The notes under the pieces are model-generated. The model ran no database searches. It was not told the origin of the DNA and saw only the letters and a program-made list of their open reading frames with translations. The translations under genes and the position numbers were made by a program. Below are positions 15,249-26,292 of a DNA stretch of 64,000 nucleotides, one piece after another; positions within the stretch are counted from its first letter, which is position 1; every line of letters starts with the position of its first letter. Origin of the DNA: Streptacidiphilus melanogenes (GTDB taxonomy: Bacteria; Actinomycetota; Actinomycetes; Streptomycetales; Streptomycetaceae); NCBI RefSeq assembly GCF_000787835.1, contig NZ_BBPP01000004.1:19428-83427 (forward strand). The letters are read 5' to 3'.

Positions 15249-15809
15249 ATGATGGTGCGCATGAGCGAAGGGGAGCGCCTTCGGCGCGCACGCGTGTGGA
15301 TCGTCCTGTTCGTGTTCGGGCTGGTACTGGCGGGGCTGACGGCCTTTCCGCTCGTCAGCGAGTCCGGGTGGCTGGTCTGGTGGGCGACCGACCGCGGCTC
15401 CCCGCTCGCCGGGTTCGCGGGGCACTTCCCCGCCGGGGTGGCCTGGGCCAGGCACGTGCACGCCGGGCTGGCCGACACCGCCCGCAGCTACCCGTTCCTC
15501 GCCTACGGCACCGACTGGCTCGCCTTCGCGCACCTGGTCATCGCCGTGGCCTTCGTCGGGCCGCTGCGTGATCCCGTCCGCAACGTGTGGGTGTTGGACT
15601 TCGGGCTGATCGCCTGCGCCGGGATCGTCCCGCTCGCCGCGATCTGCGGGCCGTTGCGCGGACTGCCGCTGTGGTGGCTGCCGATCGACATGTCCTTCGG
15701 CGTCTTCGGCGCCCTCCCGCTCTGGCTGGCCCGGCGTCATGTCAAGGCCGTCGAGCGCGGGCGGACCGCGACCGTGGCCGCGGCGCCCGCGGTTGTCAGT
15801 GGCCTGTGA
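15249..15809 (+). CDS. Small integral membrane protein of unknown function
   Basis: About 186 residues with roughly four hydrophobic helices (near residues 20-40, 95-110, 120-140 and 145-165) and a basic C-terminus. Three ATGs (15249, 15252, 15261) are possible; the first is used, though the third fits the conserved-looking MSEGERLRR opening and no clear ribosome site distinguishes them. A palindromic TetR-type site lies 11 bases upstream. The 3' end overlaps the convergent desD gene by 14 bp. I do not recognise the family. Confidence 0.7.
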   Translation: MMVRMSEGERLRRARVWIVLFVFGLVLAGLTAFPLVSESGWLVWWATDRGSPLAGFAGHFPAGVAWARHVHAGLADTARSYPFLAYGTDWLAFAHLVIAVAFVGPLRDPVRNVWVLDFGLIACAGIVPLAAICGPLRGLPLWWLPIDMSFGVFGALPLWLARRHVKAVERGRTATVAAAPAVVSGL

Positions 15810-17427
15810 TGGGATTGGGCAGTGTCCCGGCGAACTGCAGGGCGCCGGCCGGGTCGGTCAGGTCGACCATCTGCCGGTTGTTGCGCAGTTGGAGCCGGTT
15901 GAGGCAGGAGAGCGCGAAGCGCTCCGTGAAGAGGTCCAGCTCGGAGAACCGCTCGGCCAGTTCGGGGTGGGCGGTCCCGTAGTCGCGCAGCACGCGGGCC
16001 ACCACGGCCCAGAAGGCGTCCTGGTGCAGGGTGCCGCCCGTGTGCAGCTCGGCGGAGAGGAAGCGGAGGAAGCAGTCGAAGACGTCCGTGTGGAGGGAGA
16101 GCGCCCACTGCTCCTTCGGCACCCGAGCACGGATCCGCGCGACCTCCGGCGGCAGCGGCGTGTCCGGGTCCAGCACGGCGATCTCCTCGGCTATGTCCTT
16201 GAAGAAGACGCGCACCGGCGTTCCCTCGGAGGTGAGCACGAGGATCACGTTCTCTCCGTGCGGCATGAAGGTCAGGCCGTAGGCGCAGAGCCCGTGCACG
16301 ACGGGGGTCAGGTAGGCGGTGAGGTAGCGGCGCAGCCACTCCTCGGGGGCCAGGCCCGAGGAGGCGATCAGCGCCGCTGCGAGGGAGGCGCCGTCGCGGT
16401 CGGTGTGCAGCAGTGCCGCCATCGTCGCGGTGCGCTCGCCCTCGCGCAGGAACGGGACGGGGCTCTCCCGCCACAGCGCTGCGAGCTGCTTCTGCTGCGC
16501 CGTGCCCTTGGGGTAGCGCGGGTGCCGGTAGCCGACGGCCGTGTGCTCGCGCAGGATCGAGAAGCCGCAGCCGGTCAGCGTCGCATCGGCGGCGACGAGG
16601 TCGGCGAGCCAGTCGTTGACGGCGGGCGTGTGCTCCATGTAGTCGGCCGACAGACCGCGCGTGAAGCCCATGTTCAGCACGGACAGCGCCGTCTTCACGT
16701 ACGGCCGCTCCGGCGCGGCCGCGTTGAAGAACGTCCGGATCGACTGCTGGGCCAGGTGGCTGTCGCGCCCCTCCCCGAGCAGCACGATGCGACCACGCGC
16801 GATCTCGTCCGCGTAGGACACGGAGAGCCGGTGCCGCCACTGCCACGGATGGACGGGGATCGGCACGAAGCCGGCCAGCTCGGGCGGCAGCGGCGGCGCG
16901 CCCGGCAACCCGGGATCGGGATCGACGGACCGCCCCCGTGCCCGCACGGCGTCGTCGGGGTGGACGGCGACCCACAGCAGTCGCACCGGCGCGCCCGCCT
17001 CCGGCGCGTAGCGCAGCTGGTCGACGGCGTCGAAGCCGAGCCGGCCGCTGTTGGCGAGGAAGCAGGGGTGGCCCTCCGTCATGCCCGCCTCGATCGACTG
17101 GAAGTCGGACGCGGCGAGCTCGTCCGCGCCGACGAAGGGGAGGGAGAGCTTGAACGCGGTCGCGGCCAGGGTGCTGGTGATCTCCTCCAGGTAGAGCGGC
17201 AGCACCTCGTCCGACACGCCGAGGCTGCGCCGCAGCTCCAGCACCAGCCCGCCCGCGTCGAGGGGCAGTTCGACGCCGTCGTCCGCACGCAGCCGCAGGA
17301 TGCTGTCCGCCTCGATCTGCCAGTGGTCCAGCGCCAGCAGCTCGGCGCGGAAGCGGTACGCGACGGCGTCGTCGTCGCTGGCGACGCCGTTACCAGCCGC
17401 CGCTCTCCGGCAGCGGCACAGGCGTGA
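15796..17427 (-). CDS. desD: DesD-like NIS siderophore synthetase (IucA/IucC), 5' end frameshifted
   Basis: Desferrioxamine synthetase of the IucA/IucC family, which joins hydroxamate units with ATP. Visible blocks include SIEAGMTEGHPCF, PIPVHPWQW, KTALSVLNMGFTRGLSA, PHGENVILVL and CLNRLQLRNNRQMVDL. The open frame has no start codon until GTG at 17244, far too late: residues matching DesD up to position about 115 lie upstream of it. The true N-terminus ([17 protein letters not shown]) is in another frame, at the end of the desC reading frame. One base change in length near 17393 would join them. The range given is the whole open stretch; the gene is either a pseudogene, a sequencing error or needs a frameshift. 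Confidence 0.85.
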   Translation of the reverse strand, partial: SRLCRCRRAAAGNGVASDDDAVAYRFRAELLALDHWQIEADSILRLRADDGVELPLDAGGLVLELRRSLGVSDEVLPLYLEEITSTLAATAFKLSLPFVGADELAASDFQSIEAGMTEGHPCFLANSGRLGFDAVDQLRYAPEAGAPVRLLWVAVHPDDAVRARGRSVDPDPGLPGAPPLPPELAGFVPIPVHPWQWRHRLSVSYADEIARGRIVLLGEGRDSHLAQQSIRTFFNAAAPERPYVKTALSVLNMGFTRGLSADYMEHTPAVNDWLADLVAADATLTGCGFSILREHTAVGYRHPRYPKGTAQQKQLAALWRESPVPFLREGERTATMAALLHTDRDGASLAAALIASSGLAPEEWLRRYLTAYLTPVVHGLCAYGLTFMPHGENVILVLTSEGTPVRVFFKDIAEEIAVLDPDTPLPPEVARIRARVPKEQWALSLHTDVFDCFLRFLSAELHTGGTLHQDAFWAVVARVLRDYGTAHPELAERFSELDLFTERFALSCLNRLQLRNNRQMVDLTDPAGALQFAGTLPNPITGH

Positions 17428-18061
17428 TCAGCCGCTCGTGGGCGAACTCGGCCAGCGCCTTGCGCACCAGCCGCCGGTTGGCCTCCGCCCACAGCTCCGG
17501 TGTCAGGTGGGCGAGCGGATCCCGCTCGCGTTCGCCGCTCGCGGCCCGGAACTGTTCCCGCGTGCAGGTGCTGAGCAAGGCCCGCTTGCCGGACTCCGGC
17601 AGCGTCACCGCCCGAACCGGCCGGAAGCCGACGGCGGCGTTGATCCGGTGCACGGCCCGGTTGCGCACGTCGGGCTCGACGACGACGCGGCGCACCGCCG
17701 GGTCGGCGAACAGCTCCTGCATCACCGCGGCGAGGGCGGCCCGGGTGAAACCGGCGACCGGCCGCTCGGTGGGCGCGGTCAGGAAGTGCATGCCGACCTC
17801 CCCGTCGGCGCCGCGGTGCACGGCGCCGACCTCGGTCGAGGCCGGGTCGTACCGCTCCATCAGCACCGCCGGTTCGCCGCGGAAGCAGCCGATCCAGGCG
17901 TCCAGCTTCGCGTACTCCTCGGCCACCCGGTCGACCGTCGCGTCCTGCATCAGCCAGAAGACGGCCTTGGAGTGGGTCACCCAGCCGTGCAGCAGGACGG
18001 CGTCCGCGCCCGGGTCGACGCGGCGGAAGGTGAAGTCGTCGGGGGAGGCTGTGTCGTTCAT
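17390..18061 (-). CDS. desC: DesC-like hydroxamate N-acyltransferase (GNAT), running into DesD N-terminus
   Basis: GNAT acyltransferase that acylates N-hydroxycadaverine in desferrioxamine assembly. Residues about 15-180 match Des[40 protein letters not shown] and [21 protein letters not shown]. Instead of stopping after the DesC end ([10 protein letters not shown]), the frame continues without a stop into [20 protein letters not shown], which is the start of DesD, and then meets TAA at 17390-17392. Start ATG overlaps the desB stop (ATGA). In S. coelicolor desC and desD are separate genes (from memory), so the fused arrangement deserves resequencing. Confidence 0.85.
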
Positions 18062-19338
18062 GCGGCTGAGAACTCCTGGAAGGCGATGCGGCGCTCGATC
18101 GGGTAGACCTCGCGCCCGGTGAGGGAACGGAGCAGGACGGAGTTGCGGTGGGCGCCCATGCCGAGATCCGGATCGGAGAGGCTGTGGGTGTGCAGGGCGG
18201 CGTTCTGCACGAAGATCTCGCCGCGCCCGGCCGCGTCCACCGACCAGTCGCGGCGCACGGCCAGCCGGCCCTGCTCGTCGCGGGCGATCCGGTCCGCGAT
18301 CCCGGCGAGGAACGCGGGCTCGCGGTAGCGGTAGCCGGTGGCGAGGACGAGCGCGTCCGTGCGCAGCGTGTGCGTCACGTCCTGCTCGCGCTGGTGCAGC
18401 GTCAGCTCGTAGGCGTCGGCGGCGTCGTCGTAGCGCGCCGCGGTGAGTGCGGTGTTGGTCAGCAGCCGCGTCGGCACCGGCCCGCGCAGGGACTTGACGT
18501 AGAGCAGCTCGTGGACGGCGTTGACGGTGTCGGCGCTGATGCCCTTGTAGAGGGCCTTCTGCGCCGCGCCCAGCCGGTCGCGCACGGGCGTGGGCAGGGC
18601 GTGGAAGTAGTCGATGTACTCCGGGGAGGTCAGCTCCAGCGTCAGCTTGGTGTACTCCAGCGGGAAGAACCGGGGCGAGCGCGTCGCCCAGACGAGCTCG
18701 TAGCCGTATCGGTCGATGTCCCCGAGCAGGTCGAGGTAGATCTCCGCCGCGCTCTGCCCGCTGCCGACGACGGTGATCCGCTCGCGCTTGCGCAGCTCCT
18801 CGGCGTGGTCGAGGTAGCGGGAGCTGTGCACGGCGGGCCCGCCGACCCCGTCGAGGGCGGTCGGCCGGTGGGGCGGCGTCCCGGTCCCCAGGACCAGCCG
18901 ACGGGCCCGGTACGTCTCGCCGTTCGCACAGCGGACGGTGTACGCGTCGTCGGCTTCGTCGTGCCCCACGGCCGTCACCTCCCGTCCGAAGCGCACCGAA
19001 CGCAGCCGGCACGCGGCCCAGCGGCAGTAGTCGACGTACTCGCTGCGCAGCGGGAAGAAGTTCTCGCGGATGTAGAAGGAGTAGAGGCGGCCCTGCTGCT
19101 TGAGGTAGTTGAGGAAGGAGTATGGCGAGGCCGGGTCGGCGAGCGTCACCAGGTCGGCGAGGAAGGGCGTCTGCAGGCTCGCCTGCTCCAGCATCATGCC
19201 GGGGTGCCAGTCGAACTCCGGCTTGCGCTCCAGGAAGACGCCGTTCAGTTCCGCGAGGGGCTCGCTCAGGCAGGCGAGTCCCAGGTTGAACGGGCCGAGG
19301 CCGATGGCGACGAAGTCGTGGATCCCGTTGTCCGTCAT
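18058..19338 (-). CDS. desB: DesB-like cadaverine/lysine N-hydroxylase
   Basis: A 426-residue FAD- and NADPH-dependent N-hydroxylating monooxygenase. The FAD motif is GLGPFNL (residues 13-19), the NADPH motif GSGQSAAE (192-199), and the C-terminal ATGY block ([10 protein letters not shown]) is present. It hydroxylates the terminal amine of cadaverine made by DesA. ATG start follows GGGGAG. It lies 11 bp after desA and overlaps desC by 4 bp, giving the usual desABC order. Confidence 0.93.
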
Positions 19339-19349
19339 GGGAGCTCCCC

Positions 19350-20813
19350 TCAGGCGGCCTGGTCGGCGGCGAGGTAGGCGGTGGCGTGGGCGTCGAGCAG
19401 GTCGAGGACGGCGGCGAGGTCGGCGACGGTGGTCTCGGGGTTGAGCAGCGTGAACTTCAGGTGGTGGCGCCCGTCCACGACCGTGCCCGCGACGACGGCC
19501 GCGCCGCTCGCCGCGAGCGCCTCCCGGGCATGCAGGTTGGCGGCGTCGACCAGCGACGCGTCGCCCGGCGCGTGCGGCGGCTGCCAGCGGAAGACGAGCG
19601 TGCTGAGCTGCGGTTCCACCACGACGCGGAAGCGCGGGTCCCGGGCCAGCAGCGCGTGGCCCTCGGCGGCCAGGTCGAGCACGGAGTCGAAGAGCGCGCC
19701 GACGCCGTCCGCGCCCGTCACGCGCAGCGTGAGCCAGAGCTTGAGCGCGTCGAAGCGGCGTGTGGTCTGCAGGCTCTTGTCGACCTGGTTGGGAATGCCG
19801 CGCTCGGCCATCCGGCGGGGGTTGAGGTAGTCGGCGTGATGCCCGGCGTGGCGCAGCACAGCCGTGTCACGGACCAGCAGCGCGCTCGAACTGATCGGCT
19901 GGAAGAAGGACTTGTGGAAGTCGACGGTCACCGAGTCGGCCCGTTCGATCCCGTCCAGCCGGTGGCGGCGGGTGGACGAGACCAGCAGCCCGCAGCCGTA
20001 CGCGGCGTCGACGTGCAGCCGCACGCCGTGGCGGGCGCAGACGTCGGCGATCGCGGGCAGTGGGTCGATGCTGCCGAAGTCGGTGGTGCCGGCCGTTGCC
20101 ACCACGGCCGCGGGCAGCTCGCCCGCGCGGCGGCAGCGTTCCAAGGCGCGCTCCAGGGCGGCCGGGTCCATGCGCCGCCGGTCGTCCGTGTCGACGGCGA
20201 TCGCCGCGCCCGTGCCCATGCCGAGCAGGCGTGCGGACTTCACGACGCTGAAGTGCGCGGCGTCGGAGGCGAGGATCCGCAGCCGGGGGAGGGGGGTGAG
20301 GTCGCCGCCGAGCGCCTCGTCGCGGGCGATCAGCAGCGCCTGCAGGTTGGACTGCGTCCCGCCGCTGGTGAACACCCCGTCCGCGTGCGGCCCGAGACCG
20401 ATGCGTCCCGCCGTCCACTCGATCAGCCGACGCTCGACCAGGGTGGCCCCGGCGCTCTGGTCCCAGGTGTCGAGGGAGGAGTTGACGGCGGCGAGCACCG
20501 TCTCGCCGAGCAGGGCGGGCAGCACCACCGGGCAGTTGAGATGGGCGAGGTAGCGGGGGTGATGGAACCACACCGCGTCGCGCAGGTAGACGCGCGACAG
20601 CTCGTCGAGTGCGGCGTCGGCGTCCCCGAGCGGCGCGTCGAGGTCGATCGGCGCGAACTCGCGCTCCAGCGCACGCGGTTCGACGCCGGTGAACGGCCCC
20701 CGCACGGCGGCGACATGACGCGCGACGAGGGCGGCGCCGTCGCCGACGAGCCTGCGGTAGGCGTCGGCGGAGGCGGAGTTGAACAGCTGAGCCTGCGGGT
20801 GCGGCGGGTTCAT
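19350..20813 (-). CDS. desA: DesA-like PLP-dependent lysine decarboxylase
   Basis: A 487-residue group II PLP decarboxylase that makes cadaverine from lysine, the first step of desferrioxamine synthesis. Lys301 in [10 protein letters not shown] should bind PLP; His187 (DAAHFS) stacks on the ring and Asp269 (VDAAYG) holds the pyridine nitrogen. It is first of the desABCD set, on the minus strand. No iron box was found in the 514 bp upstream, unlike what is expected for a des operon, so transcription may come from the iron box at 23233 through the siderophore-binding and flavoprotein genes. Confidence 0.93.
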
Positions 20814-21327: not shown

Positions 21328-22140
21328 CTACGCGGCCTCGGCGAGGAGGTCCTCCTCGGTCGCGCCGCGGCGCCAGTAGCCAGTGAAGGTGATGCGGGAG
21401 CGGTCGAAGCCGCGTTCCCGCAGCAGGTGGCGCCGCAGGGTGCGGACGCAGCCCGCCTCGCCCGCGAGCCAGGCGTACGGAGTGCCGGGCGGGAGCGCGC
21501 CCGCCTTCAGGACCGCGGACGGCAGGCCACCGCGGGCGACCCAGCGCACGTCCACGTCCCCGCCCGCGCCCGCCACGGACAACTCCTGGCGGTCCCGCTC
21601 GAACGGCACCTCGATCCAGGCCCGCACCGGAAGTTCGGGCCGTTCGGCGCGGAGCCAGGCCATGATGCCCACGACGGCGGGCAGCGCCGTCAGGTCGGCC
21701 GTCAGCAGGACCCAGTTCGTGCCGTCCGGCGGCCGGAAGTCGATTCCGGCGTTGTCCGGGTCCGTCGGCCCGAGCGCGAGGACCCGGTCCCCGGGTGAGG
21801 TTGCCGCCGCCCACCGGCCCGCCGGGCCGGTGCCGTCGTGGAGGGCGAAGTCGACGGCGAGCTCGCCCGGCCGCTGCGCGCGCACGGTGTAGGTGCGCAT
21901 GACCGCACGCCGGGCGGGGTCGAGTCGGCGCCAGTGCGCGTACCAGTCCGCGCCCGCCGAGGTCGGCACCAGGGGCGTGGACTCGCCCGGCTGCGGCAGG
22001 AACAGCTTGAACCGCTGGTCCCGGCCGCCCGAGCGGAAGCGGTCGACCTCGGGGCCGCCGAAGACGATCCGGCGCATGGACGGGCCGAGCGCCTGCGCCC
22101 GCAGCACGCGCAGGTCGAAGAACTCCCATGCGGTCGCCAT
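21328..22140 (-). CDS. Siderophore-interacting protein (FAD-dependent ferric reductase)
   Basis: A 270-residue SIP-family flavoprotein that reduces and releases iron from imported ferric siderophores. The FAD-binding RTYTVR motif is at residues 82-87, followed by a short beta-barrel linker and the C-terminal NAD(P)H-like domain (WLAGEAGCVRTLRRHLL). ATG overlaps the stop of the binding-protein gene by one base (TGATG), so they are cotranscribed from the iron box upstream. Order and partner match the desE-desF part of Streptomyces des loci as I recall it. Confidence 0.9.
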   Translation of the reverse strand: MATAWEFFDLRVLRAQALGPSMRRIVFGGPEVDRFRSGGRDQRFKLFLPQPGESTPLVPTSAGADWYAHWRRLDPARRAVMRTYTVRAQRPGELAVDFALHDGTGPAGRWAAATSPGDRVLALGPTDPDNAGIDFRPPDGTNWVLLTADLTALPAVVGIMAWLRAERPELPVRAWIEVPFERDRQELSVAGAGGDVDVRWVARGGLPSAVLKAGALPPGTPYAWLAGEAGCVRTLRRHLLRERGFDRSRITFTGYWRRGATEEDLLAEAA

Positions 22141-23174
22141 CAGCTGACCTTCTTCGCGTGGTCCAGCGCACCGGCCAGCTGCTCGACCAGCGGCGCGCAA
22201 CCGGCGTACGAGAACCGCACCTCGCTGAGCCACGGCACCACCTGCCCGGCCCTGACGGCCGGGAGCCGCTGCCACGTGGGCTTTCCGGTCAGGTCCTTCG
22301 GCTGGAGCGCCGAGCTGCGGCTGTCGAGCAGGATCAGATCCGCACCGTACTTGTCGGCGTTCTCCCAGCTGAGCGGCTCGAAGAAGCCACCCTGCACCTT
22401 GTCGGGCGTGACCAGGTCGACGCCGAGGCCGCGGTAGTAGGCGAGGTCGGGGTAGACCGCCGGGTCGGAGACGTACAGCAGGTCCGCACTGGCGGAGGCG
22501 GCCAGCACCTTCAGCCCGCCGCGCGCCTTCGCTGTGCGACGCAGCGTCTCGACCGCCCGCTGGAAGCGCTGCTTGGCGGCGACGACGGATGCGGCGGCGA
22601 GGTCCGCACCCAACAGTCCGGCCAATTCCTCGTGACGGCGCAGCGGTTCCGGCAGCTGGACGTTGGCGATGGTGATCCCGGCCGTCGGCGCAAGAGCGGC
22701 GATCCTGTCCTTGCTCGCGTCCGGCACGTACCAGAGCTGCTGCGGCTGCCACATGTCGGTGACGAGCAGCTGCGGGCGCAGCTCGGCGTACTTCTCCAGG
22801 TCGAACTCGCCCCAGGCGTTGCCGAGCACGGTCACCTTGGAGACGTCGAGCTGTCCGGCCATCGGGTCGGCCTTGCCGTCGGCGAGCTTGGTCGGACCGA
22901 AGACGCCGACCAATCGGTCGGCGGCGCCGAAGTCGTGCAGGGCGGCGGCGGTGCCGGTGTAGGCGACGACGCGGGCGGGGGCCTGGGGGAGCGAGACCGT
23001 GGCACCGCGGTCGTCGGTGAAACGCCACGGTCCGCGCGAGGCGGAGCCGGACGCGGCGGCGTCGCCGCTGCGCGATCCGGAGCTTGGTCCTGCGCCGCAG
23101 GCGGCGAGGAGCGCGCCGAGACCGGCGACGCCGCCGGCGGCGAGCAGGGTACGGCGGGAGGGCTGAACAGGCAT
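22140..23174 (-). CDS. Ferric-siderophore ABC transporter substrate-binding lipoprotein (DesE-like)
   Basis: A 344-residue FecB/FepB-like binding protein. It has a twin-arginine signal (Arg7-Arg8) and lipobox LLAAC (Cys26), then a periplasmic-binding fold: RVVAYTGTAAALHDFG, PQLLVTDMW and LILLDSRSS. The position next to desABCD suggests it binds ferrioxamine, as DesE does. An iron box lies about 57 bp upstream, and the permease genes for import start divergently from it. Start ATG chosen because it places the RR motif correctly. Confidence 0.9.
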   Translation of the reverse strand: MPVQPSRRTLLAAGGVAGLGALLAACGAGPSSGSRSGDAAASGSASRGPWRFTDDRGATVSLPQAPARVVAYTGTAAALHDFGAADRLVGVFGPTKLADGKADPMAGQLDVSKVTVLGNAWGEFDLEKYAELRPQLLVTDMWQPQQLWYVPDASKDRIAALAPTAGITIANVQLPEPLRRHEELAGLLGADLAAASVVAAKQRFQRAVETLRRTAKARGGLKVLAASASADLLYVSDPAVYPDLAYYRGLGVDLVTPDKVQGGFFEPLSWENADKYGADLILLDSRSSALQPKDLTGKPTWQRLPAVRAGQVVPWLSEVRFSYAGCAPLVEQLAGALDHAKKVS

Positions 23175-23232
23175 GGCGCAGAACGCTTTCTTGGAGGAAG
23201 GCGGGGAGGGGAACCATGGGCTCAAGGTCAAC

Positions 23233-23251
23233 TTAGGGTAGCCTAACCTAA
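23233..23251. promoter_or_regulatory. Iron box (IdeR/DmdR site) between the binding protein and permeases
   Basis: TTAGGGTAGCCTAACCTAA fits the 19-bp actinobacterial iron box (TTAGGTTAGGCTAACCTAA) with few mismatches, and the dyad extends outwards by ACT/AGT. Its position between divergent genes implies iron-dependent repression of both the binding-protein/SIP operon (minus) and the FecCD permease operon (plus). Confidence 0.9.
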
Positions 23252-26273: not shown

Positions 26274-26292
26274 TTAGGGTTGCCTAACCTAA
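26274..26292. promoter_or_regulatory. Iron box (IdeR/DmdR site) ahead of the ATPase gene
   Basis: TTAGGGTTGCCTAACCTAA is a near-consensus iron box, extended by flanking AC/GT. It sits 9 bp before the ATPase start and about 110 bp before the divergent methyltransferase, so iron-loaded repressor would cover the -10 region of the ATPase promoter. Confidence 0.88.

Follow-up and report, generated by a model that had tools for sequence, protein, structure and literature searches.

A fused desC-desD siderophore gene in Streptacidiphilus melanogenes and its probable interruption by a single-base insertion

Streptacidiphilus melanogenes carries a desA-desB-desC-desD locus in which the acyltransferase DesC runs in frame into the siderophore synthetase DesD, meets a stop codon and is followed by the rest of DesD in a different frame. 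The first-pass annotation of this locus had offered three options, namely a bifunctional DesC-DesD gene inactivated by an indel, a sequencing error, or a programmed +1 frameshift, and the question addressed here is which of these best accounts for the split. The analysis was centred on the window, a contiguous stretch of 64,000 nucleotides (G000:C104:19428-83427) from a genome assembly of 8.77 Mb in 107 contigs, and was extended to genus relatives, to the wider family and to known enzymes of the same architecture.

Two frames at the desC-desD junction

The first of the two frames lies on the minus strand at 17393..18061, opens with ATG 18061 and encodes 223 residues that comprise DesC, a GNAT acyltransferase, together with roughly 43 residues from the start of DesD. 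A family profile scan detected an Acetyltransf_8 domain in this product (E 6e-41). Its residues 10-216 align to residues 19-236 of DfoC (PDB 5o7o), i.e. across the domain junction, and its residues 181-222 align to residues 3-44 of the DesD chain 6nl2. It had been claimed that the DesC frame passes straight into DesD and then hits TAA, and this was borne out: no stop intervenes before the TAA at 17392-17390 (minus strand). The remaining DesD, an NIS synthetase, occupies the other frame at 15799..17385 on the minus strand (529 codons by ORF reading, with no start codon at its beginning) and is readable from 17385 (VASDDDAVAYRF...). The further claim that this part has no usable start before GTG 17244 agrees with the ORF reading, in which that GTG is the earliest ATG, GTG or TTG of the DesD frame. 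The longest DesD that could be translated from a start codon accordingly spans 15796..17244 on the minus strand (482 aa; the interval includes the stop at 15796) and contains IucA_IucC (E 1.3e-69) and FhuF (E 4e-38) domains; its residue 2 aligns to residue 96 of DesD 6nl2, so that about 95 N-terminal residues are missing.

Both pieces match the same 752-aa protein of a genus relative, G007, the first covering its residues 1-223 (87% identity) and the second 225-752 (92%), and since one single protein accounts for both, the split is not a matter of chance. In blocks of 60 codons, the GC fraction of third positions is 0.95-0.98 along the DesC frame (18061-17522) and 0.92-1.00 along the DesD frame (17341-15902); as the values are high on both sides, coding sequence continues across the junction and merely shifts phase there. 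With the stop and the phase change, the window's own desCD copy is not one open frame.

The same arrangement could be read as two working genes, DesC being made from the first frame and DesD restarted at GTG 17244, which is the first start codon available in the DesD frame; separate desC and desD genes are also the commoner form, accounting for 85 of the 110 loci classified below, the window aside. However, the restarted product would be without the roughly 95 residues present in solved Streptomyces-type DesD chains, and its start would sit roughly 145 bases past the stop, inside conserved sequence. We regard two working genes as very improbable.

The neighbouring genes have open frames. Homologues of desB (18058..19338, minus strand; lysine/ornithine monooxygenase family, PF13434, E 3.3e-121; a cadaverine N-hydroxylase by analogy) and desA (19350..20813, minus strand; PLP-dependent decarboxylase, PF00282, E 6.2e-59; a lysine decarboxylase by analogy) adjoin desCD, in the desA-desB-desC-desD order of Streptomyces. 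Upstream, in the same direction, lies a putative lipoprotein read from the sequence, perhaps siderophore-binding (22140..23231, minus strand), and next to it an iron-box-like palindrome (23233..23251) that departs from the consensus by one mismatch on the minus strand and two on the plus strand; 100 shuffles gave no iron-box match. A second iron-box-like palindrome, which on the minus strand differs from the consensus at two positions, occurs at 26274-26292, and putative iron uptake genes (lipoprotein, permease and ABC ATPase, as read from the sequence) lie near both palindromes.

The fused gene in relatives and known enzymes

When the 223-residue product was compared with 14 genus genomes, the window's genome and five others matched strongly (E 3.9e-107 or better) and the other eight only weakly (best E 1.9e-7 to 5.9e-5). 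DesC and DesD form one stop-free frame of about 750 aa in five of the 13 genus mates, i.e. G002 (apparently Streptacidiphilus anmyonensis NBRC 103185), G004 (apparently S. fuscans NEAU-YB345), G006, G007 and G008. Acetyltransf_8, IucA_IucC and FhuF all lie in one open frame of the intact G007 protein, and the other four genomes match that protein at 77-91%, nearly full length and stop-free. In the other eight genus genomes, one of them just 76% complete, the same protein had no match at E 1e-20 among the three candidates scored per genome; by this comparison these genomes therefore appear to be without DesC and DesD of the fused kind. The near relatives, to which the first-pass annotation had pointed for comparison, carry the genes fused where they possess them, and separate genes are absent among them. 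Given the uninterrupted frame in these five mates, sequence comparison indicates that the desC-desD fusion is real and ancestral in the Streptacidiphilus group.

A DNA alignment of the six genomes places the interruption at 17389..17392 on the minus strand. Compared with all five fused mates, the window's genome alone has exactly one surplus base, within the codon after the TGG of the GGW motif, which makes precise the earlier proposal that one base near 17393 separates the frames. Intact fused copies in the five mates, and an extra base in one of six aligned genomes, are what an indel-broken DesC-DesD gene predicts; in the assembly, the disabling change is unique to the window's lineage and sits in an otherwise conserved gene.

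The fused architecture has close counterparts among known enzymes. DfoC of Erwinia amylovora (PDB 5o7o) shares both domains, an acyltransferase and then an NIS synthetase, in identical order, and the intact G007 protein aligns to it over 9-750 of 752 (E 1.3e-204), which confirms DfoC as a DesC-DesD fusion; the separate DesD chains 7tgn, 6p63, 6xrc and 6nl2 match residues 180-751 of the G007 protein. Passages of PMC6391442 describe desferrioxamine E as made by three proteins, DfoJ, DfoA and DfoC. The window's copy differs from DfoC in its change of phase and in its actinomycete host, and the Streptacidiphilus copies stand apart from three Pantoea copies on a DesD tree from which Erwinia DfoC is absent. 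A further example, BsbCD1 of Tenacibaculum mesophilum, is presented in passages of PMC6164419 as a single chimeric ORF whose putatively bifunctional product joins an acyltransferase to an amide-forming enzyme; as depicted there it differs in its Bacteroidetes host, in its bisucaberin B cluster and in being accompanied by another set of C and D. Passages of PMC6164419, PMC5577590 and PMC6391442 make no mention of Streptacidiphilus. Streptomyces-type DesC and DesD are two genes, whereas the Streptacidiphilus group has one fused gene. We conclude that a DesC-DesD fusion is of an already known kind, and that the frameshift is an ordinary broken gene or a sequencing slip and no new mechanism.

Classification of 110 loci, a biased sample in that 80 of them are best matches to the fused query, gave 22 fused loci (20 distinct, S. 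anmyonensis and S. fuscans being counted twice), 86 that are not fused, the window's broken copy included, and two without DesC, both cut by contig ends. In the 85 separate loci the DesC match stops at or before residue 188, save in L073, L100 and L104, where both parts share the same phase with a stop between them; the match of the window's copy reaches 223. Among the matches listed in a sweep of 297 genomes of the family, only G208 and G216 outside the genus were fused and stop-free in one match, and G237 showed a DesC-DesD match with one stop between. The one-frame loci L071 (G208) and L072 (G216), which come from other genera, sit among separate-gene rows on the DesD tree.

That tree, a quick one with several long branches, has 94 rows, with the window's row scored as fused and 16 of the 30 family loci left out (two being the S. 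anmyonensis and S. fuscans repeats), and it needs six changes between fused and separate states, at least five of them forced by starred branches. A single origin of all fusions was rejected on this count. The Streptacidiphilus copies cluster with those of Actinoallomurus spadix and Streptomyces orinoci, which are likewise fused (SH-aLRT 89 and 96). From the six changes and this grouping, the tree indicates that the fusion has been gained or lost several times, and that in the Streptacidiphilus group it is older than the species compared.

Mutation, assembly error or recoding

The extra base may be a mutation of the strain or a sequencing or assembly error, in which case the strain's gene would be intact and fused like those of its relatives. 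In a frame-switch survey, 783,928 bases of the window's genome were compared with G007 genes (drawn from 599,500 bases) at a match threshold of at least 65%, a survey that covers conserved genes and is blind near gene ends. It matched 393 genes over 131,967 aligned amino acids, with desCD as the sole switch and no N within 100 bases of it; the reverse survey of 397 genes gave a single switch, which falls in another gene, one broken in G007. A first survey round had yielded one switch in 172 genes, and none in 178 genes in reverse. Near 84680 of G007:C184, a frame switch was seen in a 609-aa gene that is intact in the window's genome (G000:C107:32191-34020). An error-rich assembly was rejected, the 392 other genes compared being without a frame switch.

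The selective record of the gene was examined alongside. Against G007, dN/dS is 0.172 for the DesD piece and 0.439 for the DesC piece, and lineage-specific amino-acid and silent changes in the DesD piece number 20/21 in the window's genome, 6/21 in G007, 18/22 in G002 and 28/35 in G008. An old pseudogene was rejected, for there is no clear decay and the 20/21 of the window's genome exceeds the G007 value but is near those of G002 and G008. Since the dN/dS of 0.172 points to purifying selection on the DesD piece, the break, if real, is indicated to be recent.

A lone lesion, with purifying selection acting on the rest of the gene, is also what an error would leave, and desA, desB, the remaining gene and the upstream iron box look intact; moreover, the genome is a draft with N runs among its 107 contigs, and a strong GC-rich hairpin lies directly 3' of the site. 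Against an error stand the 392 switch-free genes, the affected run of just two A's and the distance of at least 100 bases to any N. An error is to our minds a possibility of some weight, though one that we doubt. With desCD as the sole switch among 393 genes, a real mutation is favoured, and the frameshift is more likely real than an error.

The hairpin itself (17360..17390, minus strand) follows right after the stop and has perfect 9-base, GC-rich arms. In a fold comparison of six genomes its region reached -16.5 kcal/mol over 35 bases, versus -8.3 to -13.4 in the five relatives, whose arms at the same place are 4-5 bases long; the 9-base hairpin occurs in the window's genome only. It could stimulate a ribosomal shift, or a slip in replication or sequencing. 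A programmed +1 frameshift, by which the gene would give both a short DesC and the full DesCD, would make use of this downstream structure, and the two frames do meet cleanly at the stop codon, a junction that resembles the bacterial prfB site. However, in none of the five fused genus mates is the frame stopped or shifted at this point, conservation of the hairpin does not extend to them, and no second case occurs among the 85 other separate loci. The fold of the 121 bases of 17310-17430 is of ordinary stability (z -1.14), 31 of 200 shuffles being as stable or more so. Presumably, moreover, TGG followed by T allows no re-pairing after a +1 slip, so that the codon is not slippery. We give a programmed frameshift hardly any credence. 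Just as faint is the prospect of a real extra base combined with a low-rate shift aided by the hairpin, which would yield mostly free DesC and little DesCD and would represent a newly born recoding site partly reversing the fusion. Among the three options first put forward, the indel-broken bifunctional gene is thus upheld, the programmed +1 frameshift lacks support, with the reservation of the hairpin behind the site, and a sequencing error is retained as the lesser possibility.

Consequences for siderophore biosynthesis

Overall, we consider it probable that the window holds a desA-desB-desCD locus whose fused desCD was interrupted by a real single-base insertion, with the loss of DesD. Like DfoC, the product of the ancestral desCD would have been one polypeptide, an acyltransferase in its N-terminal part and a siderophore synthetase in its C-terminal part. 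By the insertion, which affects the codon that follows the GGW motif, a stop would have arisen some 43 residues into the DesD domain. The cell would then make DesC with a short tail, which may still work as its domain is whole and is probably active, and no complete DesD, and would presumably form no oligomerised or cyclised desferrioxamine.

Such a loss may be tolerable, since the genome has further IucA/IucC-type siderophore genes that could compensate, located at L211:10958-19609 (G000:C79) and L210:1-1257. The C79 gene is accompanied by genes for a class-III aminotransferase, a decarboxylase and a monooxygenase, a set reminiscent of schizokinen or rhizobactin genes. An acyltransferase-like stretch adjoins it, matching DesC at 33% with a stop inside the match and an N gap next to it, and another IucA/IucC gene begins at the start of C79.

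For annotation, the locus should be described as one disrupted fused gene, and not as two genes of which one encodes a short DesC and the other a DesD truncated at its N-terminus. Provided that the break is real, desferrioxamine should be missing from the strain, in a genus where eight of 14 genomes have no DesCD match at E 1e-20. With desCD fused in part of Streptacidiphilus, an actinomycete group is, in addition, to be added to the known DfoC-type fusions.
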